Virus record (IMG/VR): IMGVR_UViG_3300036444_000019
Span: 1-46,086 of that record
Direction: 5' to 3' (one strand)
Source: a virus
Length of the DNA: 46,086 bases
The translations under genes and the position numbers were made by a program. Shown here one piece after another: positions 23,821-42,861 of the stretch. A model generated the notes under the pieces. That model did not search any database and was not told the origin of the DNA. It was given only the letters and a program-made list of their open reading frames with translations. How positions within the stretch are numbered: the first letter of the stretch is position 1; every line of letters begins with the position of its first letter.

Positions 23821-23843
23821 GTTGTGCATACGGTCGCACTAAT
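23821..23843 (-). promoter_or_regulatory. candidate phage RNA polymerase promoter for late genes
   Basis: On the minus strand the element reads ATTAGTGCGACCGTATGCAC plus AAC. An identical 23-bp copy, in the same orientation, lies at 42839-42861 just before the DNA-replication genes. Its 5' part, TAGTGCGAC, resembles the TAATACGAC start of the T7 promoter. The two copies head the two gene blocks expected to depend on the viral polymerase. It is also an imperfect palindrome (GTGC...GCAC), so a regulator site is an alternative. Confidence 0.6.
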
Positions 23844-24420
23844 TCCAAGTAGCTGATATTCCTAGGTTTCCTGAGAGGCCTATGGGACCTGGATGGGACC
23901 CGATGGGACCCGGGGTTTCAGCGGGTGCCTGGGGGTTCTGGAGCAGGTTTGCGGCCTCAGGATTGGGTCCCCGAAGTGGCCCGATGGGACCCAAAATAAT
24001 GGGGCGATCGGCACGGGGCCGGAATTAGCCTGCCAGGCGCCCCTATTTCCAGCAGAAAACTACAGGGAAACCCGTGCGTTAACTGAGGTCCGAGTGGCCG
24101 CGGACGGCGCGAGCGAAGCCGTCGATTGCGAACCGTTTCCACCAGCGTCCCGGCGGGCTCCCGTCGCCCCGCGGAAGGGGACCCGGAAGCATCGGTCCCC
24201 CAGCTATTGGTCCCCCAGACCACGCTGTAACCCGCAGGAAACCGTGGGTTGTCACTGGATGCTGAAGCCAGCGCGTCCCGGGGATCGGCAGGATCGGCAG
24301 GACATTGTGCCTATCGCGGCCTTTCCATCCGAGCTTCCAGACATTCAGGCCGCCGAGTGTTTCGGTCCGCGTAAGTCAACAGGCGATGACAACGCCAGCG
24401 AGGGACCGAGGAACCCGCCG
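23844..24420. other. non-coding region with short repeats between late genes and plus-strand island
   Basis: No convincing gene was found. ATGGGACC occurs four times (23882, 23893, 23903, 23984), GGATCGGCA twice in tandem near 24282, and a hairpin with AACCC/GGGTT arms lies near 24230-24252. An open frame on the plus strand lacks a ribosome site and was rejected. The stretch may hold leader RNA, a packaging signal or decayed sequence. Confidence 0.5.
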
Positions 24421-24663
24421 TCACCCTAAGTCTCTCACCGTCACCGCGACGACCGCATGTAGCGCGACGTGCCACACGATCCCATTATTCGAGTCTAGCA
24501 CCAGCCGGGCCACCGGCTCGTCCACGCCGTCCGCTATCGACACCTCAGACACCTGCAGGCCCGCAGAGTGAGCGGACAGGACCACATGGACCTGCTGTCC
24601 GTTCTTCAGGGCTACGGCGGCCTGCTCGATCAGTGCCCGCCCTGCCCGTGTCCTATCGTCCAT
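24421..24663 (-). CDS. small hypothetical protein upstream of the late leader
   Basis: The ATG at 24663 is preceded by AGGAGA at good spacing, giving an 80-residue protein. It has an N-terminal helix (RAGRALIEQAAVALKNGQQVHV) and a beta-rich C-terminal half with WHVALHAVVAVTVRDL. No family was recognised. It points toward the late genes and is divergent from the plus-strand island, with two operator-like sites between, so it may be regulated with the island. Confidence 0.65.
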   Translation of the reverse strand: MDDRTRAGRALIEQAAVALKNGQQVHVVLSAHSAGLQVSEVSIADGVDEPVARLVLDSNNGIVWHVALHAVVAVTVRDLG

Positions 24664-24731
24664 CCCCAGTCTCCTGCTGTTACCTGCCGTCACCATAGGC
24701 CCGGCAATGCGCATCCGGCATCTGAAAAATA

Positions 24732-24809
24732 ATCTGCAGTTGCTGACGATTTCCTATTGCGGACCGTGTACACCTATGCCAAACAGTCTGCAGACGCTGA
24801 CAGTCAGCG
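24732..24809. promoter_or_regulatory. two operator-like sites in the divergent region of the island
   Basis: ATCTGCAGTTGCTGAC (24732-24747) matches the operator consensus in 14 of 16 positions. GTCTGCAGACGCTGAC (24786-24801) is a second relative and contains the perfect palindrome GTCTGCAGAC. It runs into another perfect palindrome, CGCTGACAGTCAGCG (24795-24809). The intervening TGCGGACCGTGTACACC resembles part of the 23-bp promoter element, on the plus strand. The region separates the minus gene ending at 24421 from the plus-strand genes. Confidence 0.55.
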
Positions 24810-24853
24810 ACTGAGACCGGGCTCTCCCCCGGATTTCCAGAGAGGGACGCTTC

Positions 24854-24955
24854 ATGCGTCTACGGACCGACAGGCGGCTACGCCGCTGGGCGGTTTGGGC
24901 GACGGTAGGGCTCAATCTAGCCGCCGCCCTCCTAGGGCTCCTTAGGAAGCTCTAG
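24854..24955 (+). CDS. 33-residue membrane peptide
   Basis: First small frame of the plus-strand island, with AGAGGG about 9 nt before the ATG. The product has a basic N-terminus (MRLRTDRRLRRW) and one hydrophobic helix (WATVGLNLAAALLGLL). Such one-pass peptides are common in early phage regions. Function is unknown; the small size lowers certainty. Confidence 0.5.
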   Translation: MRLRTDRRLRRWAVWATVGLNLAAALLGLLRKL

Positions 24956-24961
24956 CGCCAT

Positions 24962-24992
24962 CCCCCGAACCGGCATGAGAACCGGGAGGGGG
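24962..24992 (+). other. RNA hairpin in the island leader
   Basis: CCCCC and CCGG pair with CCGG and GGGGG around an 8-nt loop. No T tract follows, so it is not a classical terminator. It lies between two small genes and could stabilise mRNA or limit read-through. Confidence 0.4.
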
Positions 24993-25032
24993 CCTCTCCG
25001 ATACCACAACGCCATCCACCGGAGAAGACACC

Positions 25033-25224
25033 ATGGCTCAACCACTCACGACCGCATTCGATCGAGGCTACTTGGCCGGCGAGCAGGCCGGGCCGTGGGG
25101 CGCCAAGCCCGCTAATCCGTACAAAAGCCAGCGGCTATTCAATACCTGGGAGTACGGCTTCAGCCACGCCCAACTAGCTGCGCGGGCACAACGCGATCCC
25201 CACGGGCACCCGCAGGGAGCCTAA
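25033..25224 (+). CDS. RMF/CrpP-like small protein
   Basis: The 63-residue protein has the pattern AFDRGYLAGEQAG, then NPYKSQRLFNTWEYGFSHA. This spacing of G, NPY and W..GF is that of ribosome modulation factor-like proteins, the fold shared by RMF and CrpP. GGAGAAG lies 6 nt before the ATG. In a phage it may bind ribosomes or another RNA target during takeover or dormancy. The family resemblance is visual; function is inferred. Confidence 0.65.
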   Translation: MAQPLTTAFDRGYLAGEQAGPWGAKPANPYKSQRLFNTWEYGFSHAQLAARAQRDPHGHPQGA

Positions 25225-25296
25225 GGCGCCCCAAAGTCCTCCCAAAGTCACGCCTAGATATTCCGCAATTCCCGACATTCCGCAGGAGTAATCCCC

Positions 25297-25842
25297 ATGC
25301 TAACCGAAGTCCTCTACCTGACCCGCAAAGGTGACCGGCAGCAACTCGCCGCCGACATTCGCAAGGCCCTGGAGCCCCTCGGCGTGACCGTGGCGGTTCG
25401 CGAAGGAACCCGAGACCTCGCCGTCACCCTCAGCGGCCACGGGCTTAGCGCCCTGGTTCATCTGGACGCCAGGGCACAGTCGGAGGCGCCGATGATCCAC
25501 TGGCATGAGGCCCAGCGGGACCTCGTGGGCGCCGTGCGGGGCGCTTGGTCGGACGTGAACAACATTCATCGCCGGAAGGCCACGTCGTTCCCCTGCAGCA
25601 TGATCGACGTCATCGAGCGGCTGCAGCGGGGCTTTCAGGCAGCCGCAGATGGCTCGGCATTCATGCCGTACCCTGCAGGCACCGAGATGGCGGCGGCGGG
25701 TGACCACAGGGTCGAGCCGGGCACGGTGGGGCGTGTGGTCGACTGCTCGCATGAACACGTCCGCCTGCGCTTCGCCGATCATCGCGTGTTGTGCTTCGCT
25801 CCGGACGCCGTGGCCCTCGTGCCTCAGCAGGTAGCGGCATGA
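25297..25842 (+). CDS. hypothetical protein of the plus-strand island
   Basis: The 181-residue protein was not recognised. The first 60 residues look like a small alpha/beta domain (TRKGDRQQLAADIRKALEPLGVTVAV). The last 45 (VEPGTVGRVVDCSHEHVRLRFADHRVLCFAPD) resemble a small SH3-like beta barrel. AGGAG lies 8 nt before the ATG. The stop overlaps the next start as ATGA, so it is in an operon with the two following genes. Confidence 0.7.
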   Translation: MLTEVLYLTRKGDRQQLAADIRKALEPLGVTVAVREGTRDLAVTLSGHGLSALVHLDARAQSEAPMIHWHEAQRDLVGAVRGAWSDVNNIHRRKATSFPCSMIDVIERLQRGFQAAADGSAFMPYPAGTEMAAAGDHRVEPGTVGRVVDCSHEHVRLRFADHRVLCFAPDAVALVPQQVAA

Positions 25843-25976
25843 GCCCCGAGGCCTTCGTGTCCCTCGCGGTCCACAGCGTATTCGCCGGGACATTCTTCGC
25901 CGCCGCGTGGAGCCTTGTCGACTGCGTCAGGGCCGCCCTGCCCCACATTCGTCGCCTGATGGAGTTGGACCAATGA
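25839..25976 (+). CDS. small single-pass membrane protein
   Basis: A 45-residue protein with one hydrophobic segment (VSLAVHSVFAGTFFAAAWSLV). Its ATG overlaps the upstream stop, and its own stop overlaps the next start, showing tight translational coupling. No family was recognised. Confidence 0.65.
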   Translation: MSPEAFVSLAVHSVFAGTFFAAAWSLVDCVRAALPHIRRLMELDQ

Positions 25977-26125
25977 GCACGCCCCGCAAGCAAACCACGC
26001 GGTATCTCAAGGTCTCCTGCGACTGCTGCGGGTGGACCGCCCGCGTCACCTCCAAGCACCTCAACGGCCGGAGCCTGCGGTGTCCCGATGAATACTGCGA
26101 GGGCGGCCTGGAGCGGGACGCCTGA
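25973..26125 (+). CDS. small zinc-ribbon protein
   Basis: This 50-residue protein has CDCCG near 16-20 and RCPDEYCEGG near 36-45, giving four cysteines spaced as a zinc ribbon. The ATG overlaps the upstream stop as ATGA. Such small zinc-binding proteins are common in phage early regions and may bind nucleic acid or host RNA polymerase; no specific function is claimed. Confidence 0.7.
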   Translation: MSTPRKQTTRYLKVSCDCCGWTARVTSKHLNGRSLRCPDEYCEGGLERDA

Positions 26126-26170
26126 TGCCCCCGGAGGGCCGGTGCGATCGGCCCCGAGGATGGCCTCTGT

Positions 26171-26632
26171 CTACCCAAATCGCCTCCGTTCCGCCTCCTC
26201 TTCGCTCTCCGCCAGGGGCCCGGAGCCACCCTCGAAGTTAGCCCAACGGAAGAACGGCGGTTCCGGCGAGTCCCGCAGGATCGTGAAGTCCCCGAGCTGC
26301 TCCGCCAGGAGGTGCGCAGCGTAATACTTGGCCCAATCGCGGGCCTTCGGGACATCGGAGACGAACAGCTTCCTCCGGTCCCGAGGCCACTGCTTGATAC
26401 ATTGGACCAGCAGTCCCTCTAGCTCCTTAATGGGCACCGGGTGCGGGCTCGCCCCGTCATAGAGCTCACAGCCGTACAGCTTCCGCAGTATCTCCGCGGC
26501 GGCCGATTGGAGCCGGAAGTCGGCGAAGCGGTCCCAATGGTCCGCCGCTACGGCCTTGCGGTCCTGGTGTCCCCAGCCGCCCATCCCAGCGAACAGACAA
26601 TAAGTCAGCTCGTCCATTCGGACCTGTCGCAT
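26171..26632 (-). CDS. hypothetical protein divergent from the XRE regulator
   Basis: This is the only long minus-strand gene inside the plus-strand island. The protein (153 residues from the ATG at 26632) was not recognised. It has helices (LQSAAAEILRKLYGCEL; KELEGLLVQCIKQW) and a charged C-terminus. AAGGAG lies 11 nt before this ATG; ATGs at 26668 and 26617 are possible alternatives. It is divergent from the XRE gene at 26939 and convergent with the small zinc-ribbon gene, a layout seen in regulatory switches. Confidence 0.6.
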   Translation of the reverse strand: MRQVRMDELTYCLFAGMGGWGHQDRKAVAADHWDRFADFRLQSAAAEILRKLYGCELYDGASPHPVPIKELEGLLVQCIKQWPRDRRKLFVSDVPKARDWAKYYAAHLLAEQLGDFTILRDSPEPPFFRWANFEGGSGPLAESEEEAERRRFG

Positions 26633-26870
26633 CTGCGTATGTGCTCCTTCGCGTCGCCTAAGGAACATATAGAGAACGAAAGCCGGCAGCGCGAGTCCTA
26701 TCTAAGCCCGTACAAGGCCGCGTGGCGCGGGAGGTGACATTCTGTCCCCCAGGCCCCCAAGCGACTCACCGAGCACATTCCACCGGCGGCAGGACGACCA
26801 GCCGGGGCCTTTTTGCGACCAGTCGTGGAACTAAAGGTCTCCGTAGTAACACGTAGGATGGCATAACCCC

Positions 26871-26900
26871 TTGCATCGGATGGTTAACCGATGGCATTAT
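26871..26900 (+). promoter_or_regulatory. promoter with inverted repeat upstream of the XRE gene
   Basis: TTGCAT (26871-26876) and CATTAT (26895-26900) are separated by 18 bp and fit a sigma-70 promoter. Between and around them lies an inverted repeat, CATCGG...CCGATG (26874-26893), centred on the palindrome GGTTAACC. This suggests autorepression by the XRE protein. The site is unrelated to the GTCTGC operators, so the island regulator probably has its own binding site. Confidence 0.6.
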
Positions 26901-26938
26901 GTCCCTGTCGGCACTTGCCGCCACACGAGGAAACGCAC

Positions 26939-27487
26939 ATGGCCCCGCGACAACGCAAAGGCTCGGGAGTAAACCCATCGGATACCTTGGGAACTCCCGA
27001 GGGCCGTGGGGGACAGAATGTCACGCAGCGTTCAGCTTCGATGGGCGATAAGGCGCCGCAAGAGTACCAGGAGGAGCTGGAAGCGTACGACCGCATCAGC
27101 CGTCTCTTGGAAGTTGCCGAGCTGGCCCGCCAAGTATTCACAAGGCCCAGCGGAGTATTGCTTCCGGTGACGCCCGAGCGAGTCAAAAAGATACGCGAAG
27201 AGCTGGGACTGTCGCAGGCAGGACTTGGCCAATTGCTCCGTCTCGGCGCCCACGGGAAACGGACTGTCGCCCGTTGGGAAGCCGGGGACGTCCCTGTGTC
27301 TGGACCAGTCTCGGTGGCCTTGGAGGCCCTTGAGAGCGGATGGAGCCCAGGGGACGGCAGATGGCACGATCTACGGCAGGCTTATCTGTCCGTCCTCGAC
27401 GCTATCGACGATGCCGTTCGCCAAGCCCGCGAGCAGGTACACGCTACAGGAGCCGGCCGCGACGATGACAAGGACAGCCGTCCTTAG
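26939..27487 (+). CDS. XRE-family helix-turn-helix regulator
   Basis: The 182-residue protein starts at the ATG at 26939, with GAGG 9 nt upstream; an earlier in-frame ATG lies inside the promoter. Residues about 80-135 form an XRE helix-turn-helix (TPERVKKIREELGLSQAGLGQLLRLG...RTVARWEAGD), resembling the C-terminal domain of MqsA/HigA-type regulators. The N-terminal part is unrelated to CI protease domains. It may be a second lysogeny regulator or an antirepressor-type control protein. Confidence 0.8.
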   Translation: MAPRQRKGSGVNPSDTLGTPEGRGGQNVTQRSASMGDKAPQEYQEELEAYDRISRLLEVAELARQVFTRPSGVLLPVTPERVKKIREELGLSQAGLGQLLRLGAHGKRTVARWEAGDVPVSGPVSVALEALESGWSPGDGRWHDLRQAYLSVLDAIDDAVRQAREQVHATGAGRDDDKDSRP

Positions 27488-27508
27488 TGGAGCGTATCGG
27501 GTAGCGCT

Positions 27509-27688
27509 ATGATGATTGACGTAGAACGTATTGAGGCAGTGGGATCGGCTCTGACGGTCGCGCTCGATGAAGGAACGGCCGAGTACATGGGAGACGGAGC
27601 TTTCGTGGTGTTTCAGGAGGTCGACGGGGAGACCCAAAGGCTCACCCTGACCACTGACGATCTCCGCAGGATGCTGGACATGGCCTAG
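27509..27688 (+). CDS. 59-residue hypothetical protein
   Basis: Starts with two ATG codons just after the XRE gene. The product has helix (VERIEAVGSALTVALDEG), hairpin (GAFVVFQEVDGETQRLTLT) and short C-terminal helix (TDDLRRMLDMA). The hairpin-helix end resembles two small proteins encoded at 29037 and 29252. The ribosome site is weak, so it may depend on coupling to the XRE gene. Confidence 0.6.
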   Translation: MMIDVERIEAVGSALTVALDEGTAEYMGDGAFVVFQEVDGETQRLTLTTDDLRRMLDMA

Positions 27689-27718
27689 ATTGCCCTGGGA
27701 GACTCACCAGGACCGCTA

Positions 27719-27748
27719 GGGGCTCGGGAGGTATCCTGGGCCCCTTTT
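27719..27748 (+). terminator. rho-independent terminator of the XRE operon
   Basis: GGGGC (27719-27723) pairs with GCCCC (27740-27744), with partial inner pairing, and is followed by TTTT. It lies downstream of the XRE gene and its small companion. Confidence 0.7.
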
Positions 27749-27800
27749 GCTTGCCTAGCGCTCCAGCAGGCCCCAAATGGGCTCTGGAGGAGCGTGTCTA

Positions 27801-27929
27801 ATGGGCTGGCTGTCAATCGCAGGGATCATTGTGCTGGGCTTCGGGCTCGTCTGGGCGTTCAACGAGGACCGCTCGACCAAGCGGACGTTGCGATCGAAAA
27901 AGAACCCCCAGCCTCCCGAGGGAAACTGA
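27801..27929 (+). CDS. 42-residue membrane protein
   Basis: A strong GGAGGAG lies 8 nt before the ATG. The product has one hydrophobic helix (WLSIAGIIVLGFGLVWAF) and a basic, proline-containing tail (KRTLRSKKNPQPPEGN). It is the last plus-strand gene before the minus-strand replication block and is convergent with it. Function is unknown. Confidence 0.65.
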   Translation: MGWLSIAGIIVLGFGLVWAFNEDRSTKRTLRSKKNPQPPEGN

Positions 27930-27938
27930 GGGTATCTT

Positions 27939-28217
27939 TTAGAAACCGTCGATCACTGCGCGAGTGAGCGCGTGAAGCTTGGCTTGCTCGGGATGCAGTC
28001 GGACCCACTGGCCTGTGTAGGCGGCGAAGTGCTTCCGGAAGAACTCGTCGAGCCGAGGGCGGCCCGTCGTGACCTTGGGGTCCACGAGGTAGCACTCCCG
28101 ATCGTAGAGCTCATCCGAGACCAGCGACACGTCGAGCACCTCATAGGCGTAGGCCCAGACGGACACACGGATACGGCGGCGCCGTTCGGTTTCCTCGGGG
28201 GTGCCCCAGGTCGACAT
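27939..28217 (-). CDS. small protein with resemblance to NAD-dependent ligase domain Ia
   Basis: The 92-residue protein starts at 28217, overlapping the upstream stop as TAATG. It contains WAYAYEVLDVSLVSDELYDRE, then VDPKVTTGRPRLDEFFRKHF and TGQWVRLHPE. The Y...SDELYD pattern recalls the N-terminal domain of NAD-dependent DNA ligases, and related stand-alone phage proteins are often labelled LigA-related. No ligase catalytic core is present. It is the last gene of the replication block. Confidence 0.6.
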   Translation of the reverse strand: MSTWGTPEETERRRRIRVSVWAYAYEVLDVSLVSDELYDRECYLVDPKVTTGRPRLDEFFRKHFAAYTGQWVRLHPEQAKLHALTRAVIDGF

Positions 28218-28513
28218 TAGGCCGCCTTGGGCGCCTGCCAGATGCGCAGGGCCCCAGCGAGGTTGCGCTGCCAATCCGCCCAGTCACTCGTGGCCTGATT
28301 GATTGTCAGGCTAGGCATCTCGGCAATCGCCTCAACTACCGCTTTCAGAAGGACGAACGCGAGGTACAGCGGGATCATTAGCGGCAGCAGAAGCCAGAAG
28401 AGCAGCGTGTTTAGCGCTAGAGCCATCACGGCGACCACGATGGCAGGGCGGCGCTTCCAGGGGCTCGCCTGTCTGTGCGCCCGGTTGGCGAAGCGGACGA
28501 TAAGCGCCTTCAT
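28217..28513 (-). CDS. membrane protein of unknown function
   Basis: The 98-residue protein starts at the ATG at 28513, overlapping the upstream stop. After a basic N-terminus it has a long hydrophobic region (about 25-60, VVAVMALALNTLLFWLLLPL onward), enough for one or two membrane helices, then a soluble C-terminus. No family was recognised. Confidence 0.65.
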   Translation of the reverse strand: MKALIVRFANRAHRQASPWKRRPAIVVAVMALALNTLLFWLLLPLMIPLYLAFVLLKAVVEAIAEMPSLTINQATSDWADWQRNLAGALRIWQAPKAA

Positions 28514-29037
28514 GCGGACACCTTGGAAGCCCGGCTGCGCGGGTAGCCTTCTTCGGCCTCCAGCTCGTCCTGCAGCATCGCTAGGGCCCGCCATGCGAGC
28601 CGGGCGGTATGGCGCATTCCGCGTCCGTCGAACTTCCCGCGGTCCACGAGGTGCCGCATGATCTTATTGGCGTGATCGGTCGACTTGTCCCGCGCCCAGT
28701 GCATGGGCTGGCCGGGATTGTGCTGATCGTTGCCGATCTTCGAGACCTTCGAGACCTCCGCGAGCGCGTTCGGGAAGTAGTCCAGCAGGCCATCGGCCAT
28801 CGGGTACTCCCCGCGCTTTGCATCGTCGTCGGGCAGCGACAGGGTCGAGAGGTCCGGCTCCGGGGACGCAGTCCGACACGCTTCGCGCAGCGCGGCGGGC
28901 GAACCGTGAACCGAGGCGCGGCACTTCTGGCAAACAGGGTCTGAGACGTACAGGCCCTCTTCGCGCACATCGTGGGTCGGATGGACGTCCACTGGCGTGA
29001 GTGCAGCCCTAGCTTGGGGAGCAATCAGGTTCCCCAT
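28510..29037 (-). CDS. dATP/dGTP diphosphohydrolase N-terminal domain protein (DUF5664-like)
   Basis: The 175-residue protein has an N-terminal CxxC (C36, C39) with a further C54, suggesting a small zinc site. Residues 75-162 follow the pattern GEYPMADGLLDYFPNALAEV, SKIGNDQHNPG, MHWARDKSTDHA and RHTARLAWRALAMLQ. This is the family named dATP/dGTP diphosphohydrolase N-terminal domain (DUF5664). A nucleotide-pool role is plausible because it lies among replication genes. No PurZ-like enzyme of the Z-DNA pathway was found. Confidence 0.75.
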   Translation of the reverse strand: MGNLIAPQARAALTPVDVHPTHDVREEGLYVSDPVCQKCRASVHGSPAALREACRTASPEPDLSTLSLPDDDAKRGEYPMADGLLDYFPNALAEVSKVSKIGNDQHNPGQPMHWARDKSTDHANKIMRHLVDRGKFDGRGMRHTARLAWRALAMLQDELEAEEGYPRSRASKVSA

Positions 29038-29231
29038 CAGCCAACTACCTTCCCCAGGAACGCCAGGAGCGCGGCGATCTGTTCGTCCCCCAGGACCACG
29101 TTGTGCAGCGTGCCGTCCTCGGCGACCTGCGAGAGGGCGACCACGCCGTCCCCCATGTTCGTCACGGTGAGGGCGTCGAAGCCGTCCTGGTCGAGGACTT
29201 CGGCGCCACTGAACTTGTTCAACTCTTGCAT
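29037..29231 (-). CDS. 64-residue hypothetical protein
   Basis: AAGGAAG lies 6 nt before the ATG at 29231. The protein has two beta stretches (DALTVTNMGDGVVALSQV; GTLHNVVLG) followed by a C-terminal helix (DEQIAALLAFLGKVVG). It resembles the next upstream protein in its hairpin plus helix ending. The stop overlaps the next start as TGATG. Confidence 0.65.
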   Translation of the reverse strand: MQELNKFSGAEVLDQDGFDALTVTNMGDGVVALSQVAEDGTLHNVVLGDEQIAALLAFLGKVVG

Positions 29232-29251
29232 TAGGCTTCCTTCGGATGCGG

Positions 29252-29521
29252 TCAGTTGGCGGGGGCGTCCAGCTCGATGTCGAACTGGGTCAGGAGGCAG
29301 GCTTCGCGCTCGACCAGCAGGGCCAGGATGGCCCCCAGGTCTTCGCGGGTCAGCGTGAGGGAGACAGCGCCGTTCTTCGTGGTCACCGTCAGGGACCCGC
29401 TGCCCGCCTGGGCGGCCTGGAGGCCCCGCAGGTTCGGCAGTCGGTTCGCTGCGGCCCCGATGACGCGGGCTTCGGCTTCGGTGAGGCGGCCCTTGGGAGG
29501 CGCGAGGGCCGGGAGGTTCAT
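29252..29521 (-). CDS. 89-residue hypothetical protein
   Basis: The ATG overlaps the stop of the exonuclease gene. The protein has an N-terminal helix (LTEAEARVIGAAANRL), a hairpin (GSLTVTTKNGAVSLTLT) and a C-terminal helix (REDLGAILALLVEREA). The last two elements match those of the small proteins at 29037 and 27509. Function is unknown. Confidence 0.65.
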   Translation of the reverse strand: MNLPALAPPKGRLTEAEARVIGAAANRLPNLRGLQAAQAGSGSLTVTTKNGAVSLTLTREDLGAILALLVEREACLLTQFDIELDAPAN

Positions 29522-30324
29522 GCTTCAGGTGTCCACAGGATCGGGCGACGGGCCTCGCGGTCCCAGTCGGTGTGTCGGAGGATGCGAGCCAGGCGGGCAT
29601 TGAGCAGCGCCAGCTCTTCGGGGGTCTCAACGCCGGCCTTTTCGAGCGCGGCGGGTTTCTTGCGGCAGCCGTCGCGATAGGCCTGGAGGATGTTGGCCCA
29701 GGGGTCGCCGGCCTTCGCCAGGACCTTCTCAGCCGACACCGGGCCGATGCCTGGGCAGCCGTGGTAGCCGTCCGTGCTGTCGCCCATCAGGGTCTGATAG
29801 TGCCAGAAGCGATCGGCGCTCTCCTGGTCGGTCTCGATCAGCTCGGCCTTCCCGGAGGTGGAGCCGCTCCAAATCTCAACGTTGGGCAGGGTCTTCATGT
29901 CCTTGTCTTCGGACACGATGACGCGCCGGACCGAGGAGGGCCGGGTTGCGAGGATGCCGATGTAGTCGTCCCCTTCCAGGCAGTCCTCCAGGACCACGCG
30001 GAACTGGCCGTCTTCCTTCAGCTCCCGCACGATCTCCCAGTAGGAGACCGGCTTGCGGCTGGCAGCGCGGTTGCCCTTGTAGAGCGGCCACACGTCGTAT
30101 CGGAAGTTGGACTTCCCCGAGAACACGAGGACGGCCTCGTCGGCGAAAAGCTTCTTCACGTAGCCGTCGATCGACTTCAGGAAGTTCTCTTTCGCCTCCT
30201 CTCGGGAGCAGTTGAGGATGTCCACGGTGTCCCCGTGGGTGTTCGTGAAGCTGGCAACGCGCTCGACGGCCGAGCAATCCCGGTAGAGCACAAAGTCAGC
30301 GTCGATCAGGAGCTGAGTCGTCAT
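29518..30324 (-). CDS. 5'-3' exonuclease, T7 gp6-like
   Basis: The 268-residue protein is a FEN-type nuclease that removes RNA primers and helps degrade host DNA. Metal ligands are visible at D8 and D10 (LLIDADFVLYRD), E117/D119/D120 (LEGDDYIG), D140/D142 (SEDKDMKTL) and D182/D185 (GDSTDGYHG). The helix-hairpin-helix follows at CPGIGPVSAEKVL. In T7, gene 6 also follows the polymerase gene. Confidence 0.93.
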   Translation of the reverse strand: MTTQLLIDADFVLYRDCSAVERVASFTNTHGDTVDILNCSREEAKENFLKSIDGYVKKLFADEAVLVFSGKSNFRYDVWPLYKGNRAASRKPVSYWEIVRELKEDGQFRVVLEDCLEGDDYIGILATRPSSVRRVIVSEDKDMKTLPNVEIWSGSTSGKAELIETDQESADRFWHYQTLMGDSTDGYHGCPGIGPVSAEKVLAKAGDPWANILQAYRDGCRKKPAALEKAGVETPEELALLNARLARILRHTDWDREARRPILWTPEA

Positions 30325-30480
30325 TACGTTCCGTTTCTGTTCTCAAATCCAACATGTCCATAGGAAAACTCCTACGGTTGCCTGCGTGTGGTCATGTCGG
30401 TAGCTAAGGCACTGACATTCCTAAAGACGGCAGCACTGCGCGTCTGGAGGAAGTCCTCGGACAGCGTTCCGTCCTAGGGG

Positions 30481-30729
30481 TCAGAAGTTCCAGGGGTGGT
30501 ATTCAGCCTCGATACGGCCCGTGAGCTGGGCCAGCGGGTAGACGAAGCGCTTCGGCGGGTGGCCGGCGTGCTCCTGGAGGATGTGCAGGCAGCCATCGGC
30601 CACCTCGTAATCCAGCCGGGTTACGGTGAGGCCGCAGGGGCCCTTCCCGAGGCGGAACTCTGCCACCTCGTCGCGGAAGGTGCCCTGCTGGGACCACGAG
30701 GCCGGAAAGCGGATGAGCTTGAGGGTCAT
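30481..30729 (-). CDS. 82-residue hypothetical protein
   Basis: A beta-rich soluble protein (MTLKLIRFPASW, then VADGCLHILQEHAG). Its ATG overlaps the upstream stop as ATGA. No family was recognised. About 155 bp without a gene lies between it and the exonuclease; nothing recognisable was seen there. Confidence 0.6.
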   Translation of the reverse strand: MTLKLIRFPASWSQQGTFRDEVAEFRLGKGPCGLTVTRLDYEVADGCLHILQEHAGHPPKRFVYPLAQLTGRIEAEYHPWNF

Positions 30730-30845
30730 TCGGGCTCTGTCGGTTCCGGCGAGGGAAGCGCCAGCACAGCGGACGCCTCCTCGATTTCCGTGAACTCGGC
30801 TTCGATGATCTCCGGCGTAAGGACCCAGATGGCAGGGTAGCCCAT
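30726..30845 (-). CDS. 39-residue acidic protein
   Basis: A short frame joined at both ends by overlaps (TGATG upstream, ATGA downstream) to neighbouring genes. The product is very acidic (PEIIEAEFTEIEEA...PSPEPTEPE). Small acidic proteins of this kind sometimes act as DNA mimics or inhibitors; no such function is claimed. Confidence 0.55.
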   Translation of the reverse strand: MGYPAIWVLTPEIIEAEFTEIEEASAVLALPSPEPTEPE

Positions 30846-31384: not shown

Positions 31385-31388
31385 TGGA

Positions 31389-32217: not shown

Positions 32218-32234
32218 TAGGCCCTCCTTGGGGC

Positions 32235-34232: not shown

Positions 34233-34233
34233 G

Positions 34234-37074: not shown

Positions 37075-37107
37075 GGTGTTCTCAGGGTGTGCGTCTCGCT
37101 GGACGCC

Positions 37108-37308
37108 TCAGGGTGTTAGAGTCTGGAGCCGGCCATCGGGCCAGCGGACCGTCACGCGGCCATCGCGATAAGCAACAACGGGAAGCCGTATCTCTCGCGG
37201 CGCGGGCATCTCGATCTCACAGACCTCCGAAGGCCCGATGGGTAGGTCCGGGAGGTCCACGGGGTCGTAGTAGCGGACGGTGTGGTAACCCAGGATGGGG
37301 CTAGTCAC
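37108..37308 (-). CDS. 66-residue hypothetical protein
   Basis: The GTG start at 37308 overlaps the primase-helicase stop as GTGA. The protein ends with AYRDGRVTVRWPDGRLQTLTP, a short beta pattern. It lies between helicase and polymerase genes, so a role at the fork is possible but not shown. Confidence 0.6.
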   Translation of the reverse strand: MTSPILGYHTVRYYDPVDLPDLPIGPSEVCEIEMPAPREIRLPVVAYRDGRVTVRWPDGRLQTLTP

Positions 37309-39056
37309 AGGTCGAGCCCGTCGATCGGCTCGAAGGAGTGGCCGCCACGGCGGGGCGCCTCGGGCTCCTCAGGGAACTCGGTCTCGTCGAGCCAGCCCGT
37401 GGGCGGGTCGTACTTCAGGCACAGGGTGTTGCCCCCTGCCCGGCCGGTGAAGCGGTCCTTGACGCAGCGGAGCGTCGTGTAGAGCCGCATCTCGGGGTCC
37501 TCGTGGACCGTGTTGCGCTCCAGGCCGAAGGCGTAGTGGGCAAAGGCGCCGATCGCGCGGGAGCCCTTGAACTGGCTTAGCCGGACCTGTCCGCCTTCCT
37601 CATGGCTCGGGCCGTTCTCCGCGGTGCGCAGATGGCACACCATGACGCAGAAGGTCCGCAGCTCCTGCATCAGCAGGGCCAGTTCCTTGACGATCAGCTC
37701 GACCGAGGCCCGTTCGTTGGCGGGGTCGATCAGCGCGGTCAGGTTGTCGATCCAGAAAGATTTGATGCCCTTCGAGACCGCGAGGTAGCGGATGCGGTTC
37801 TTGAGGTCCTCCCAGGAGGTCGCGGCGAAGTTGCCGCCGAAGACCAGGTGGTCGACCTCCAGGCGCTCGATCGCGGCGAGCAGCTCGCTCTCCGTGTAAC
37901 CACCCTCTTCAGGGGGAAGGTGGAACGCCTTGCGGGCGCCCTTGCCGGCCACACGCCGGATCGTCTCGACGGGATGTTGCTCCAGGTAGATGACGGCGGT
38001 TGGTAGCCGCAGGACGTTGACGTCGTGCTCGATGTTCTGCGTGCAGAAGTCGGTCTTCCCGACCGCGTTGCCGGCCCCTAGGTAGTACGCCTCGCCCTCC
38101 CGACGCCCGAAGGTCCACGCCGTGAGCGTGGGGAACGCCCAAGGGATGCCGATGGCGACCGGCGTGAGTACCTGGCTCTTCAGGTCAGCAACCGTGAAGA
38201 TACCGTCCGGCTTGAACTCACGAGCATTCCAATAGGCCTGCTGGATTGCCTTAGTGTCGCCGGCCAGCAGGGCCTCGCGGGCGTCCTTGTGGCCCGGAAC
38301 CTCGCCGATGAAGGCTTTGCCGGGCGGCAGGAGCGCGGCGGCTCTTTCAGCCCACTCGCGGCCCGTCTTGTCTCCGTCGAAGACCAGGATGATCTTCTCG
38401 AATTGGTCGATCCACTCATACCAGGCCCGGATGGTCTCCTCGGCGCCTTTCGCCCCATTGGGGAGCGAGACGCACGGGTACTTGCCTCCGGTGACCTGAT
38501 AGTAGGCAGCGCAGTCGCCCTCGCCTTCCCAGATGACCAGCGAGCGCCGGTCGGACCCCTGCCCCCACTTGTGCATCAGCCACATGGGCGCGGCGGTGCT
38601 CCCCTTGGCGTGCGGGAAGCGGAACGTCTTGTCGTCCTCGGCGTCCTCCGGGAGCTTGTAGCGTATCTTCTGGCCCCAGAGGGTGCCGTCCGGCAGCCGG
38701 TAGTCGAAGGCCACACAAGACTTGCGCGGGTAGTCGAGCTCCAGATGAGTGACGCCCATCTGGACCAGCCCGATGCCCAGCTCTCGGCGGACGTCGGTCT
38801 TGATCCCGTAGGCACGGGTGAAGGTCTCGTCCCCCAGGTCGGAGGGGTACGGCTCGTAGGGTTCGGTCATTCGGGTCCTGGGGGCAGCTCGGCGGGGCCG
38901 GCTGTTGTCATCGTCGTCCGGCCACTCGATCGTCTTCGAGCAGCCGTGGCAGTAGAGGCGCCCGGAGGCGTAGCGGGCCGCGTTGTCGCGGGAGCCACAC
39001 TGAGGGCATGGCTCGTGGCCCACGAAGGCGCTGGTGTCGGGCTCGCGGTCAGTCAC
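37305..39056 (-). CDS. primase-helicase, T7 gp4-like
   Basis: The 583-residue bifunctional enzyme has an N-terminal zinc-binding domain (C17, C20, C36, C39). The TOPRIM primase core includes a conserved glutamate (VIWEGEGDCAAYY) and DGD (ILVFDGDKTGREW). The RecA-like helicase has Walker A GAGNAVGKT near 325-335 and a WIDNL Walker B later on. It unwinds DNA and makes primers at the replication fork. Size and domain order match T7 gp4. Confidence 0.96.
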   Translation of the reverse strand: MTDREPDTSAFVGHEPCPQCGSRDNAARYASGRLYCHGCSKTIEWPDDDDNSRPRRAAPRTRMTEPYEPYPSDLGDETFTRAYGIKTDVRRELGIGLVQMGVTHLELDYPRKSCVAFDYRLPDGTLWGQKIRYKLPEDAEDDKTFRFPHAKGSTAAPMWLMHKWGQGSDRRSLVIWEGEGDCAAYYQVTGGKYPCVSLPNGAKGAEETIRAWYEWIDQFEKIILVFDGDKTGREWAERAAALLPPGKAFIGEVPGHKDAREALLAGDTKAIQQAYWNAREFKPDGIFTVADLKSQVLTPVAIGIPWAFPTLTAWTFGRREGEAYYLGAGNAVGKTDFCTQNIEHDVNVLRLPTAVIYLEQHPVETIRRVAGKGARKAFHLPPEEGGYTESELLAAIERLEVDHLVFGGNFAATSWEDLKNRIRYLAVSKGIKSFWIDNLTALIDPANERASVELIVKELALLMQELRTFCVMVCHLRTAENGPSHEEGGQVRLSQFKGSRAIGAFAHYAFGLERNTVHEDPEMRLYTTLRCVKDRFTGRAGGNTLCLKYDPPTGWLDETEFPEEPEAPRRGGHSFEPIDGLDL

Positions 39057-39264
39057 GCAGCCACTCCCTGATGAGGAAAGAGTTGTGGGCCGCCTGCTGG
39101 CGTAGCTCCGGGTCCGCCTGAAGGAGGCGGGCTATCTCCAGATTGTCCTCGAACTCCTCTTCGTCGGTACGCCCCGCCCCGCAGGCCACGCAGAGCCCGT
39201 CGAACATGCACAGCTCGTCAGCGCCCGCGGGGTCCCCGCAGAAAAGGCAGGTTCCATTGGTCAT
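39049..39264 (-). CDS. small zinc-ribbon protein upstream of primase
   Basis: The 71-residue protein starts at 39264. It has CLFCGDP near 5-11, a further cysteine and LCVACG near 24-30, consistent with a zinc-binding fold, then an acidic helical C-terminus. Its end overlaps the primase start by 8 nt, so the two are translated together. Confidence 0.7.
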   Translation of the reverse strand: MTNGTCLFCGDPAGADELCMFDGLCVACGAGRTDEEEFEDNLEIARLLQADPELRQQAAHNSFLIREWLRD

Positions 39265-39387
39265 AGGTCTCTCGGTGGTGTGGGTGGGTCGAGGGTGAAG
39301 CTGACCCGCGCGGTCCATTGTCAGCCCGGTGCGATCTACACCGCAGCCTCTCCGTGACGGGGAGAGGTACGCGAACGGCCCTCGGGA

Positions 39388-39424
39388 GGCCCCAGCGGTG
39401 AAAGGAGGAAAGCCCGCTGGGGCC
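39388..39424 (-). other. strong RNA hairpin, 10-bp perfect stem
   Basis: GGCCCCAGCG pairs perfectly with CGCTGGGGCC around a 17-nt loop that, on the minus strand, contains the anti-Shine-Dalgarno-like CCTCCTTTC. No T tract follows, so this is not a classical terminator. It may be an RNase processing site or part of a regulatory leader. Confidence 0.6.
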
Positions 39425-39652
39425 GCCGGAAGTCCGGTCGTCAGTGTTTCGAGCAGCCGCCCCTGGGGTCCACTTCACTGCACGGCAAAGCGCAGTTGAG
39501 GCACGGACACACCTACCCCGGGTTCTCCGTGTCAGGAGCTGCCATCAGTGGCCACAAATGGCGGGCGGTGGAGGTTGCAACTTGCCTTCCGCAGTTCGTC
39601 GGGTCGGCACTTCAGCGCCACTCCGGCGGCTGGTCGAAACGCTGAGGTCGAG

Positions 39653-39689
39653 AAAAAGCGGGGCCAACCATGTTACTGATCGGCCCCGC
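39653..39689 (-). terminator. rho-independent terminator upstream of the primase unit
   Basis: GCGGGGCC and GGCCCCGC form a perfect 8-bp stem, followed by TTTTT on the minus strand. It ends the transcript that starts before the ssDNA-binding protein gene and separates it from the primase-polymerase unit. Confidence 0.88.
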
Positions 39690-39813
39690 GGGGTTCAGGG
39701 GTTCTTACGACAAGCCCCCTGGGGCTCCGCTCGCTCTCTTGCTGGCATCGTAGCCCGGTTTCTTAGCGCTGCCGGGCGGCAACGATCGGACGCCTTCGCG
39801 ACGGCGGTCCAGA

Positions 39814-40047
39814 TTAGATGCGCTCGACGCGGAGGAGCTGTTCGCCCTGGAAGCGGACGCGGTAGTCGCCCGCGACGTAGCTGTGGGTCGTGGTGCCGTC
39901 CGCAGCAGCGTAAGCCTCCGCAGCGACGATGAGCGTCTCGACGGCTGCCGTGAGCGCATCCGCGGGGCTCTGGACCACGACGCTCTTGTTGATCGCGGGG
40001 TCGGCCCGGGAGGTCTTCGCCGACTTCGGCGTTTCGGTGTCAGACAT
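39814..40047 (-). CDS. 77-residue hypothetical protein
   Basis: A soluble protein (MSDTETPKSAKTSRADPAIN, then AAVETLIVAAEAYAAADG and YRVRFQGEQLLRVERI). It overlaps the upstream membrane protein gene by 8 nt. Not recognised. Confidence 0.6.
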   Translation of the reverse strand: MSDTETPKSAKTSRADPAINKSVVVQSPADALTAAVETLIVAAEAYAAADGTTTHSYVAGDYRVRFQGEQLLRVERI

Positions 40048-40294
40048 GGAGTGTCTTTCGGTAGGCGTCGCGGATCGTTAGCCACACCGACCGGCCGTTG
40101 AAGAGCCGGCGGAGGACGTAGGATCGCACGAGCGAAATGGCGGTGAAGATGAGGCTGATGACCACGTTCTGGGTCACGCTCATCTGGACGTGGAGGACCG
40201 CGGGGATCACGAAGTGGTTGGCGATCGTCGAGATGACGATGCCGATCACGATGTTGACCAGGGCTTCCATCAGGCTGTCGGTGCGGGACTGCAT
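40040..40294 (-). CDS. membrane protein, DUF7220-like
   Basis: This 84-residue protein has two hydrophobic helices (ALVNIVIGIVISTIANHFVI and TQNVVISLIFTAISLVRSYV) followed by basic LRRLFNGR. The ES/EALVNI...SLVRSYVLRR pattern is widespread in phage membrane proteins of unknown function. Confidence 0.7.
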   Translation of the reverse strand: MQSRTDSLMEALVNIVIGIVISTIANHFVIPAVLHVQMSVTQNVVISLIFTAISLVRSYVLRRLFNGRSVWLTIRDAYRKTLHV

Positions 40295-40295
40295 G

Positions 40296-40457
40296 TCAGG
40301 CCTGCTTGATCTCTACGGCGAAGCCGGAAGCGATGTCGGCCTCCACCACGGAGCGCGGCAGACGCCAGGTAAATCCCATTGCCTCGACGGTAACGAGCGC
40401 GTCCGGGTCGGGGAGTGGAAGCTCAAGCGTCCCCGGGTCTTGGGGGTCTTTAGCCAT
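40296..40457 (-). CDS. 53-residue hypothetical protein
   Basis: Starts at 40457, overlapping the upstream stop as TGATG. The acidic, proline-rich opening is followed by a small strand-helix unit (VTVEAMGFTWRLPRSVVEADIASGFAVEI). Not recognised. Confidence 0.55.
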   Translation of the reverse strand: MAKDPQDPGTLELPLPDPDALVTVEAMGFTWRLPRSVVEADIASGFAVEIKQA

Positions 40458-40699
40458 CAGATGTCCCACTCCCAGAAGGCGTGAGTCTGCGCGATCGACG
40501 GATGGGCGCCTTGGCGGACGTTGTGGTCGAACTCGGCGACGACTTCGTCCTCCAAGCCGTAGCGGGAAGCGTGAGCCCGCGCCCCGTTGCGCCACTGGTC
40601 GGTGGTGCTCCAGCCGCGGGCACGCCGGACTGCATCGGTAAGGCGCTGGAGCCGGTAGTTTACCAGCCGGCCCCAGAAGCGCTTAAGCGTGGGCGCCAT
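40457..40699 (-). CDS. 80-residue hypothetical protein
   Basis: A basic N-terminal half and a C-terminal pattern RYGLEDEVVAEFD...GAHPSIAQTHAFWEWD, which recurs in small phage proteins. It overlaps the upstream regulator gene by 17 nt. Function is unknown. Confidence 0.6.
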   Translation of the reverse strand: MAPTLKRFWGRLVNYRLQRLTDAVRRARGWSTTDQWRNGARAHASRYGLEDEVVAEFDHNVRQGAHPSIAQTHAFWEWDI

Positions 40700-40919
40700 A
40701 CGTGTACACGTTGTAGCGGCGACGGGTCACCGGGTGACGCTTGGTCTCCACGCTGATCGGGAAGCCGGCGTCGCGCAGCTCGGTAATGCGGCGCGTGAAC
40801 GAGCCCGAGTTGATGTCGAGGTCGAGGAGCGCCTCGCGGGGCGAAGCGGTGCCCTTGGCCTGGAGGTAGTCTAGGACCTCCTTGGCGCGGGGGGTCAGGT
40901 AGCTGGTACGGAAGGTCAT
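40683..40919 (-). CDS. winged-helix DNA-binding protein
   Basis: The 78-residue protein has a helix-turn-helix (KEVLDYLQAKGTASPREALLDLDINSGSFTRRITELRDAG) and a small wing (FPISVETKRHPVTRRRYNVYT). This is a common phage HTH type. It may regulate early transcription or assist replication; targets are not visible. Confidence 0.75.
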   Translation of the reverse strand: MTFRTSYLTPRAKEVLDYLQAKGTASPREALLDLDINSGSFTRRITELRDAGFPISVETKRHPVTRRRYNVYTYGAHA

Positions 40920-41140
40920 GCGGGGACTCCGAGGCGGCGGGCGATCTCACGGCGATGCTCGTGGGGCCGGCCGGTGTGGCGGTTGATCTGGGCGATGCTG
41001 TGCGAAGGGCGGCGCGGGTTGTACTTGGGGCCCGGCCGGGACCAGCCGATCATCTCGTAGCGGAACGGAGACAGGGAGGCGTACTGGGCGGCCAGCAGGG
41101 CGCTTCCGGTCAGCGCAACCTTAGCGAAAACACGGTTCAT
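40916..41140 (-). CDS. 74-residue hypothetical protein
   Basis: A short hydrophobic start (VALTGSALLAAQYASL) precedes a basic, histidine-containing C-terminus (HSIAQINRHTGRPHEHRREIARRLG). The stop overlaps the next start. Not recognised. Confidence 0.55.
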   Translation of the reverse strand: MNRVFAKVALTGSALLAAQYASLSPFRYEMIGWSRPGPKYNPRRPSHSIAQINRHTGRPHEHRREIARRLGVPA

Positions 41141-41161
41141 TGGGGCTTCCTTCGGCTTGGT

Positions 41162-41629
41162 TCAGAGGGTCGCGTATTCGCGCTTGGCGTCGAACGACGG
41201 GCAGGCCTTCGCGACCTTCGGGAAGTCGCGGTGGCCCTGGATGATGGCGGTGCGGTGCTTGGCGCGGAGCGAGCGCAGGAGCGCCACGAGGGCGTCCTTC
41301 TGCTCCGGGGTCCGAGTGTCCTTGGGGGTCTTCCCGTCCTTCGCGACACCGCCAATGTAGACGATGCCGAGGGCCCGCGAGTTGTAGCCGGCTACGTGGG
41401 AGCCGACAGCGTCCTCAGGCCGGCCGGCCTCGATCGAGCCGTCCAGGCGGATGACGTAGTGGTAGCCGATGCCTGCCCAGCCCTGTTGGAGGTGCATCCG
41501 GTCCATATCAGTCGCGTCGAACCACTTGCCCTCGGGCGTGGCCGAGCAGTGTACGGCGATGTAGTCGGTGGAGGTACGCTTGGTCGTGGCGCGGCTCTTC
41601 GGCCACGCGAACTCGCGGGTCTTCGTCAT
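41162..41629 (-). CDS. N-acetylmuramoyl-L-alanine amidase, T7 gp3.5-like
   Basis: The 155-residue enzyme cleaves the peptidoglycan amide bond. Zinc ligands are H27 (AVHCSAT), H133 (GHRDFP) and C143 (KACPSFD), with catalytic Y56 (GYHYVI) and K141, as in T7 lysozyme. T7 gp3.5 also binds and inhibits T7 RNA polymerase. This protein lies in the same place after endonuclease I, so a similar double role is possible. Confidence 0.93.
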   Translation of the reverse strand: MTKTREFAWPKSRATTKRTSTDYIAVHCSATPEGKWFDATDMDRMHLQQGWAGIGYHYVIRLDGSIEAGRPEDAVGSHVAGYNSRALGIVYIGGVAKDGKTPKDTRTPEQKDALVALLRSLRAKHRTAIIQGHRDFPKVAKACPSFDAKREYATL

Positions 41630-41650
41630 GGTCTCTCTTTCAGTTGAAGG

Positions 41651-42064
41651 TCAGGCCGAGGCGGCAGCGATGGCCGCGTGGCGCTCGGGGTCGTCGGGTT
41701 CGTCGATCCAGGCCTGGGGGATGACCTTGTCGGCGAAAGGTATGCCGAGCTTGGCGCACCAGGCGCCGTAGGTGGTCTTGCTGCCCTTGCGGATCGGGGA
41801 GGCCGAGCGACTGAAGACGAACCGGATGTCGAGCGCGGGATGTTGCTTGCGCACCAGTTCGTGCTTCTTGCGATCGTCGCAGTCGAAGAGGCCCTTCGTC
41901 TCTACGATGATGCCGTTCGGGAGGATGAAGTCGGGGGTGTACTTGTGGCTGCTGGCCGGCTTCTCGTAGGCGAGCCGGACCTCTTCGTAGCGATAGGGGA
42001 CCCCGCGGGTGGCGAGGTCCTCCATCGTCTTGCTTTCGAGGCCAGAGCGGCCGTGCAGCTTCAC
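41651..42064 (-). CDS. endonuclease I, T7 gp3-like
   Basis: The 137-residue junction-resolving endonuclease begins at GTG 42064, with AAGGG 5 nt upstream. Catalytic residues follow the T7 pattern: a glutamate near 27-28 (YRYEEVRL), D45 (KYTPDF), E55 and K57 (IIVETKG). It breaks host DNA and resolves branched replication products. It lies between ssDNA-binding protein and amidase genes, as in T7. Confidence 0.88.
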   Translation of the reverse strand: MKLHGRSGLESKTMEDLATRGVPYRYEEVRLAYEKPASSHKYTPDFILPNGIIVETKGLFDCDDRKKHELVRKQHPALDIRFVFSRSASPIRKGSKTTYGAWCAKLGIPFADKVIPQAWIDEPDDPERHAAIAAASA

Positions 42065-42071
42065 TCGACCC

Positions 42072-42695
42072 TTAAATGTCGAGGACGCCACCGTCGCCTT
42101 CGTCCTGCTCGTCGGAGTCCGAGCCCAGCGACAGCTCGTCGCCCGCATCATCGTCGCCAAAGCTGTAGGCGTCCTCATCGTCGAGGGCCTTGAATGAGCT
42201 GGTGCCGCCGCGCTGGACGAGCTTGACCACCTGGACACCGGTGAGGGTGAACGAGATGCCGTCCTCGCCCTTCATCTCGTAGGGGCTCAGGAAGCCTTCG
42301 AGGTACGCGACCGTGCCGCCGCCGATCTCGACCTTGCTGGGGTCGATGGGCTTGGCCCGTGCGTCGACCAGGAGCGGCGCTCGCTTGGTCTTGGACTTGA
42401 GGAGCAGCTTGCCCGTCTCGACGCGCTTGGGCTTCCGGGTGCCCTCGGGGGCGTTCGGGTCCTTCTGCGTCTCCTTGACGAGCGGGAGCTTGGTGTCCTT
42501 GGGGTCAAGGCCGAACTGCTTGCAGGCGTCGGCGAGGATCGCCTTGGCCTTCTTCATGGCGGGGGAGTTGGGCTCCTCGACGCCATCAGCCTTGTAATAA
42601 TCTTCCCCGAACTTGTCGTCCGGCGCGTTCAGGTGCGGGTAGGAGAGCACGAGAGGGCCAAAGACGGCGTTCAGGGTGGGTCGTTTATTTGCCAT
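42072..42695 (-). CDS. single-stranded DNA-binding protein, gp2.5-like
   Basis: The 207-residue protein starts at 42695 (MANKRPTLNAVFGPLVLSYP); earlier in-frame ATGs would overlap the terminator. It has a single OB-fold-type domain and a very acidic C-terminal tail (SDSDEQDEGDGGVLDI), the feature gp2.5 uses to contact polymerase and helicase. It is the first replication gene after the 42.8-kb control region. Confidence 0.82.
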   Translation of the reverse strand: MANKRPTLNAVFGPLVLSYPHLNAPDDKFGEDYYKADGVEEPNSPAMKKAKAILADACKQFGLDPKDTKLPLVKETQKDPNAPEGTRKPKRVETGKLLLKSKTKRAPLLVDARAKPIDPSKVEIGGGTVAYLEGFLSPYEMKGEDGISFTLTGVQVVKLVQRGGTSSFKALDDEDAYSFGDDDAGDELSLGSDSDEQDEGDGGVLDI

Positions 42696-42758
42696 TGCGG
42701 CGTAGAAATTCCGTACGTGCGGGTGAGCTGTCAGTGCCGACAGTCCGCGAATGTGGAC

Positions 42759-42795
42759 AAAAAGAAACCCCGAGCTGTCGTTGGACGGCCCGGGG
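42759..42795 (-). terminator. early terminator between RNA polymerase and ssDNA-binding protein genes
   Basis: GCCCCGGGC-type and GCTCGGGG-type arms (plus-strand 768-775 and 788-795 of the 42 kb) form an 8-position stem with one mismatch, followed by TTTCTTTTT on the minus strand. It lies between the promoter-like element and the ssDNA-binding protein start, so it can limit or attenuate both host and viral polymerases. Confidence 0.75.
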
Positions 42796-42838
42796 CGGGA
42801 AGGTTGCACAGGGGAGATAGGAGGTCAGCGGGTAGCTG

Positions 42839-42861
42839 GTTGTGCATACGGTCGCACTAAT
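42839..42861 (-). promoter_or_regulatory. candidate phage RNA polymerase promoter for replication genes
   Basis: Identical over 23 bp to the element at 23821-23843 and in the same orientation (minus strand). It lies just after the RNA polymerase gene and before the replication genes, where a viral class II promoter is expected. A 16-bp operator lies 7 bp upstream. Confidence 0.62.

Follow-up and report, generated by a model that had tools for sequence, protein, structure and literature searches.

Putative promoters for the single-subunit RNA polymerase of a temperate T7-like prophage, with operator-like sites beside them

Which sequences does the RNA polymerase (RNAP) of a temperate T7-like prophage read, and what might keep them silent in the lysogen? 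The question is raised by the 46,086-nucleotide stretch of viral DNA analyzed here (IMG/VR record IMGVR_UViG_3300036444_000019, positions 1 to 46,086; hereafter, the window), which carries two identical copies of a 23-bp element, GTTGTGCATACGGTCGCACTAAT in plus-strand letters, at 23821-23843 and 42839-42861. From sequence comparison, these two elements are almost certainly promoters of the prophage's own T7-class single-subunit RNAP, because the signal changes together with the RNAP amino acids expected to contact it in 13 related viruses.

Two copies of one element ahead of two gene blocks

The window is a T7-like phage genome carrying an integrase. Read from right to left, the order on the minus strand is RNAP, element, gp2.5-like single-stranded DNA-binding protein (SSB), endonuclease, amidase, primase/helicase, PolA-type DNA polymerase and exonuclease, followed by the second element, tail collar, virion proteins, terminase, portal, scaffold, capsid, tail fiber, MarR-like regulator and integrase (Table 1). 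This is the gene set of a temperate T7-like (Autographiviridae-type) phage, with RNAP, primase/helicase, PolA-type polymerase, SSB and endonuclease in T7 order plus an integrase. All relevant genes lie on the minus strand, and the functional reading of the element is therefore ATTAGTGCGACCGTATGCACAAC on that strand. One copy sits between the RNAP stop codon (42889) and the SSB/replication block; the other lies 247 bp ahead of the tail-collar gene, the first gene of the late block. The elements are thus placed ahead of the middle and late gene blocks in the direction of transcription. The original prediction, made from this sequence by itself, had described two identical 23-bp copies in the same strand sense, one heading the late genes and the other the replication genes. 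The exact repeat was confirmed and the placement was borne out, in relatives as well. Indeed, the element is the window's longest exact same-strand repeat, and no further match with up to three mismatches was found elsewhere in the window (0 expected, from 100 shuffles). The window's full promoters would accordingly number only two, plus one half-site upstream of the RNAP gene.

The element and the polymerase in related genomes

An exact 20-mer of the window had no match in IMG/VR, and relatives were therefore sought through RNAP, which gave eight and then eighty IMG/VR loci, plus a few genomes; a megablast search of the late promoter region against phage records also gave no match. All relatives with an RNAP gene that is near full length, intact at its 3' end and at least 51% identical in product to that of the window have an element-type sequence within about 60 bp of the RNAP stop codon. 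A position matrix built solely from these first copies, i.e., those after RNAP, was then scanned for further copies and found exactly one additional strong copy in each near-complete relative (G001, G002, G003, G004 and G006), as well as in fragment G007, G012 and G009. Strong copies scored 24 to 41 and other sites about 10 or less, except for a site of 19.5 just upstream of RNAP in G008. The late copy lies on the gene strand, ahead of the tail-collar gene in the 6 relatives looked up.

The two copies within a genome also agree with each other. Over the 10 positions from -15 to -6 (numbered from the start site proposed below), copies 1 and 2 were identical in all eight genomes having both, vs a mean of 3.07 mismatches per 10 between genomes, and only 12 of 40320 permutations re-paired the copies as well as observed. 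The variants over this stretch are GTGCGACC in the window, G001 and G002; ATCCCACC in G003; GTGCAGAC in G004; GTGCTGAC in G006; GTGCTGAG in G012; and TCCCCAAC in G009. Upstream and downstream blocks at fixed spacing would also suit a host promoter that uses an alternative sigma factor. To this reading can be opposed a search of four host genomes, with up to three mismatches, for the form common to the window, G001 and G002. G015 and G016, two Sphingomonas genomes of 3.6-4.6 Mb, each contain that form exactly two times, with about 21.6 kb between the sites in G015 and about 19.5 kb in G016, which matches the prophage spacing; within the same limit, it is absent from G017 and G034, whose phages use other variants. 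Two sites per host genome are what the prophage alone would give, which speaks against a host signal. Moreover, the variants of the element follow those of the RNAP from one phage to the next, and we regard a host promoter of this kind as highly improbable.

The strongest evidence comes from the polymerase. A profile of the RNAPs was aligned to T7 RNAP (1aro), in which residues 723 and 725 of the window's enzyme correspond to T7 R746 and N748. In T7 RNAP, N748 contacts -10 and -11 (PMC5937735), N748D switches the enzyme to the T3 promoter, and R746A is inactive (PMC11477551). We compared each promoter position with 590 variable, gap-free RNAP columns, with the rank among all columns serving as the control, in a sample of 13 genomes, which is few and in which -8 and -10 are not fully independent. 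Base -10 was tracked best by residue 725 (rank 1/590; 0.757, with the next column at 0.518): N is paired with G in nine genomes, S, A and E with C, and T with A. For base -8, residue 723 ranked 2/590, with R and T accompanying G, Q accompanying C, A accompanying T, V accompanying A, and E accompanying G or C; the same residue ranked fifth for base -7. On a tree computed with the specificity loop masked, the -10 state needs four changes, at least three of them forced by well-supported branches, and the -10 pairing is thus not explained by shared descent alone. These comparisons support the view that the equivalents of T7 residues 746 and 748 read promoter bases between -11 and -7. Together with the conserved placement and the within-genome agreement of the copies, they uphold the earlier suggestion that the element is a promoter of the viral RNAP.

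Beyond this set of relatives, other signals appear. In G020 (L105), whose RNAP is 50% identical and has R746 and A748 equivalents, no element of the window type was found after RNAP and no late repeat was found; it presumably carries another signal. Among relatives with 40-43% identical RNAPs, a promoter-like repeat was found for L035 only. In this sister group (L035/L133; RNAP 43% identical), three copies of a different signal, ATATAACCCTGATATA, lie before RNAP, before SSB and later in the genome (L035 756-808 and 4224-4276 for the signal in L035). The residue 748 equivalent in this group is E, and the CCC of ATATAACCCTGATATA resembles the T3 promoter, T3 RNAP having D748.

Two identical direct repeats about 19 kb apart might instead serve recombination, packaging or replication origin function. 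Such a repeat has little reason to head two gene blocks in relative after relative, its covariation with RNAP specificity residues would be unexpected, and the attachment (att) site lies elsewhere; we consider this reading scarcely credible. T7 origins use promoters, and by analogy, the element may have an origin role in addition to its promoter role. The right end of the window places the att site: read directly, it enters a tRNA-Leu gene, of which only the 5' half is present, and probably marks an integration junction; ARAGORN reported no whole tRNA gene. The junction falls at 45757-45785, in the anticodon-loop part of the gene, and the same tRNA start precedes RNAP in L003, L004, L005, L007 and L010. 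Three of the nearest relatives are located in chromosomes or contigs of Sphingomonas. We read the window as a temperate T7-like prophage of Sphingomonas-type bacteria.

Several further observations concern the genomes rather than the element. The late-block order is unlike that of T7, with tail genes first and then terminase, portal, scaffold and capsid, and the major capsid protein (6568-7476, minus strand) is of the SU10 type (PF17236). The G004 record (L006 and L042) holds two T7-like RNAP genes, 54% and 40% identical to the window's and about 41 kb apart, as if two prophages stood in tandem; G034 (L104 and L113) likewise has two such genes in one record.

Start site and likeness to known phage promoters

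Within the element, A-16, T-15, T-14, A-13, C-9, G+1, A+3 and A+5 are invariant in 13/13 genomes when +1 is set at the G of GTATG. Positions -4 to -1 are mostly A/T: -4 is G in 5/13 and C in 1/13, and -3 to -1 are always A/T. The anatomy is that of the T7 class, with AT-rich -17 to -13, C-9, an AT-rich stretch from -4 to -1, and G at +1. We propose that transcription starts at this G (23827 and 42845) because of its invariance, the covariation with residue 748 that the register yields, and the AT-rich melting stretch. The original prediction had drawn a parallel between TAGTGCGAC and T7 TAATACGAC; the T7-class likeness stands, but the alignment is 3 bp off, and the nearest promoter is of the K11/KP32 type rather than T7. 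The rejected register would set +1 at a position occupied by C or T in the family and would bring residue 748 opposite -13.

The element shares with the T7, T3, SP6 and K11-KP32 promoters its length, AT-rich -16 to -13, C-9, a variable -12 to -6 read by the specificity loop, an AT-rich melting stretch, and G+1; it differs from them in its -11 to -6 and -4 to -1 bases, in starting GCACAAC, and in having only two full copies per genome. The KP32 promoter, ATTAGGGCACACTATAG (PMC11617373), has in common with it ATTAG and the C of GC. The promoter of cyanophage Syn5, ATTGGGCACCCGTAA (PMC3950665), has a similar ATT...GC..CC.GTA outline but is shorter, with other spacing and without a demonstrated common register. 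Three points count against assigning the element to this class. Its match to any known promoter is modest, at best 9/18 identity, to the K11 type. The first transcribed bases would be GCACAAC, vs GGGAGA in T7. Finally, there are only two full sites here vs the eight phage promoters that transcript mapping found in LUZ100, a T7-like Pseudomonas phage with temperate features (PMC10134795). We take the element to be a fresh sequence variant of the T7-class promoter; the natural matched polymerase-promoter variants, together with the possible operator lock described below, are the added value.

Control regions and operator-like palindromes

The region upstream of the RNAP gene contains a half-element, CATTAGTGCG, an exact match at 10/10 positions. 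The original prediction had suspected degenerate relatives of the element at 45584 (minus) and 24756 (plus); the first proved to be this real half-element, whereas at the second the position matrix gives nothing above threshold, and it was dropped. L004 has the half-element arrangement of the window, and so does L005 with its own variant, TTAATCCCACC, which shows the same base variant as the full copies of L005. Weaker full-length matches to the position matrix lie upstream of RNAP in L003 and L010. In L007 (locus about 2.4-2.5 kb), the half-element upstream of RNAP is in the opposite orientation, GCACTAATGG, and still seems to bear the variant of L007 itself. A polymerase site ahead of the polymerase's own gene is known in LUZ100 (PMC10134795). 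As the host promoter of the RNAP gene, we can only propose TTGACC, 17 nt, CATACA, because a sigma-70 scan yielded nothing that passed the threshold around the RNAP gene or promoter 2.

Downstream of promoter 1, a terminator-like hairpin occupies the gap before SSB, and all 8 relatives that were folded have a hairpin in the corresponding position (z -1.0 to -5.2). T7 has an early terminator; by analogy, this hairpin might be one, stopping the host polymerase while the phage polymerase reads on.

Table 1 Features of the window discussed in the text
Feature	Position	Strand	Details
Putative phage-RNAP promoter 1 (middle/replication block)	42839..42862	-	-17 at 42862, proposed +1 G at 42845, CATTAGTGCGACCGTATGCACAAC; exact repeat; same place in 11 relatives; covaries with RNAP residues 723/725
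Putative phage-RNAP promoter 2 (late block)	23821..23844	-	-17 at 23844, proposed +1 G at 23827, AATTAGTGCGACCGTATGCACAAC; exact repeat; late copy in 8 relatives
Half-element CATTAGTGCG	45585..45594	-	Exact 10/10 match; 5' of -35-like TTGACC (45575-45570) ahead of RNAP gene
T7-like single-subunit RNAP	42889..45522	-	Likely start ATG 45483; Pfam PF00940 E 2e-81; phrog_414 E 1e-186; PDB T7 RNAP
Codons of RNAP residues 723 (R) to 725 (N), specificity loop	43348..43356	-	Profile alignment to T7 RNAP 1aro; rank 1/590 for -10, rank 2/590 for -8
gp2.5-like SSB, first gene after promoter 1	42072..42809	-	Likely ATG 42695; phrog_112
Tail-collar protein, first gene after promoter 2	22852..23574	-	PF07484; same neighbor in 6 relatives
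MarR-like regulator, candidate repressor, directly before integrase	1152..1514	-	PF01047 E 1e-5; phrog_9665
Tyrosine integrase	1..1149	-	PF00589; phrog_1
Terminator-like hairpin and T-run	42767..42796	-	Fold -26.9 kcal/mol, z -3.1
Intrinsic-terminator-like hairpin	45627..45654	-	Between integration junction and RNAP promoter
Operator-like palindrome TGTCTGCAATTCCAGACT	23803..23820	.	+8..+25 of promoter 2
Operator-like palindrome	42868..42885	.	-40..-23 of promoter 1
Operator-like site (3 mismatches)	42742..42759	.	+87..+104 of promoter 1, SSB gene leader
Operator-like site	45530..45547	.	Weak -10-like end of putative host promoter of RNAP gene
Operator-like palindrome	45695..45712	.	Upstream of RNAP
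Operator-like palindrome	45730..45747	.	Next to tRNA-Leu junction
Operator-like site (3 mismatches)	24731..24748	.	Upstream of promoter 2
Operator-like palindrome	24785..24802	.	Upstream of promoter 2

Both promoters adjoin operator-like sites, which are newly seen here and possibly constitute a lock on the phage promoters. Palindromes of the type TGTCTGC-N4-GCAGACT gave 15 strand-matches in the window, background included, vs 4.6 expected. Matches to the late operator fall within regulatory stretches in 5/6 cases in the window (P = 2.7e-6) and in 4/4 cases in G003 (P = 9e-6), and visual inspection shows, in most of nine genomes, operator-like sequence at a constant distance past the late promoter. 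This adjacency, and the presence of a MarR gene in the prophage, would fit a reading in which the 23-bp element is itself bound by a repressor or some other regulator rather than serving as a promoter. We consider that very unlikely: the element is asymmetric and always gene-oriented, its variable bases track the DNA-reading RNAP residues, and a separate palindromic motif would already take the operator role.

The candidate for the protein that binds the palindromes is the MarR-like product. The MarR-like gene that adjoins the integrase has a counterpart in all complete relatives examined, and PMC10134795 relates that MarR has been suggested to control the RNAP promoter of Pasto and of LUZ100; for both reasons, we name it, with moderate confidence, as the likely repressor at the operator-like sites. 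LUZ100 has its own 17-bp RNAP promoter motif and one phage promoter upstream of RNAP, which MarR is proposed to repress (PMC10134795). Like the window, it has MarR beside the integrase, the integrase upstream of RNAP, a tRNA-Leu link and a cognate RNAP promoter motif. The two differ in that stable lysogens of LUZ100 were not obtained (PMC10134795), whereas the relatives of the window are integrated prophages, and in that LUZ100 has eight promoters and the window two full ones with operator-like sites adjoining both. Pasto (Agrobacterium) and HTVC019P (Pelagibacter), temperate T7-like phages as cited in PMC10134795, share with the window an integrase plus RNAP, and MarR sites are there proposed to flank the promoter upstream of RNAP.

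Taken together, these features suggest the following scheme. The RNAP gene would first be transcribed by host polymerase, from a promoter lying upstream. The phage enzyme would bind -17 to -5 of the element and read -10 and -8 through the counterparts of T7 N748 and R746 in its specificity loop, and the AT-rich -4 to -1 stretch would melt for a start at the G of GTATG. Promoter 1 would drive the replication block and promoter 2 the late block, both on the minus strand. In the lysogen, a repressor would occupy sites of the GTCTGC-N4-GCAGAC type near the RNAP promoter and beside each of the two phage promoters, +8 to +25 of the late one among them; the MarR protein whose gene adjoins the integrase is the likeliest candidate.

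Whether MarR would lock the phage promoters themselves is, in our estimate, an even question. Two results tell against the operator part of the scheme: the palindromicity of +8 to +25 over nine genomes was not significant (P = 0.11), and repeated occurrence of the late operator was not significant in the tested genomes other than the window and G003. A smaller but substantial chance attaches to an arrangement in which the promoter assignment is right but lysogenic control acts at the RNAP gene only, the palindromes beside the phage promoters being unused or belonging to another regulator, such as the HTH_3 protein encoded at 26891-27487 on the plus strand. Locking the RNAP gene alone would silence both promoters, and the operator statistics are weak in several relatives; against this, the operators of the window and G003 cluster at regulatory stretches, the operator-like sequence after the late promoter keeps its distance in most of the nine genomes inspected by eye, and the HTH_3 gene has no counterpart in relatives, whereas MarR has one. 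That lack of a counterpart also led us to reject the HTH_3 gene as a general repressor. The gene runs on the plus strand, against the minus-strand direction of the rest of the phage; a 24-nt inverted repeat (26734-26757 / 27001-27024) surrounds its likely true start, and it resembles an accessory gene that brings its own operator.

The promoters with adjoining MarR-type operators have a familiar counterpart in the T7lac promoter of expression vectors, in which a repressor operator lies just downstream of the start of a T7-class promoter. The arrangement proposed here would be natural and of MarR type rather than LacI. In its fullest form, to which we give slightly less than an even chance, the proposal is of a Sphingomonas-type clade of temperate T7-like prophages with natural T7lac-like promoters, in which one MarR-family repressor locks the RNAP gene and both RNAP promoters (with its operator over +8 to +25 of the late one), and in which polymerase and promoter have drifted together, via the 746/748 equivalents, into about nine variants that are possibly mutually orthogonal. 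Most of what is known of the recognition code of these enzymes stems from T7, T3, SP6, K11 and engineered variants, and the present set adds a ready source of data: roughly a dozen polymerase-promoter pairs from nature, with individual loop residues varying alongside individual promoter bases. Moreover, the silence of a T7-like phage in the prophage state becomes open to direct test, since the operators predicted here overlap or adjoin the phage promoters.

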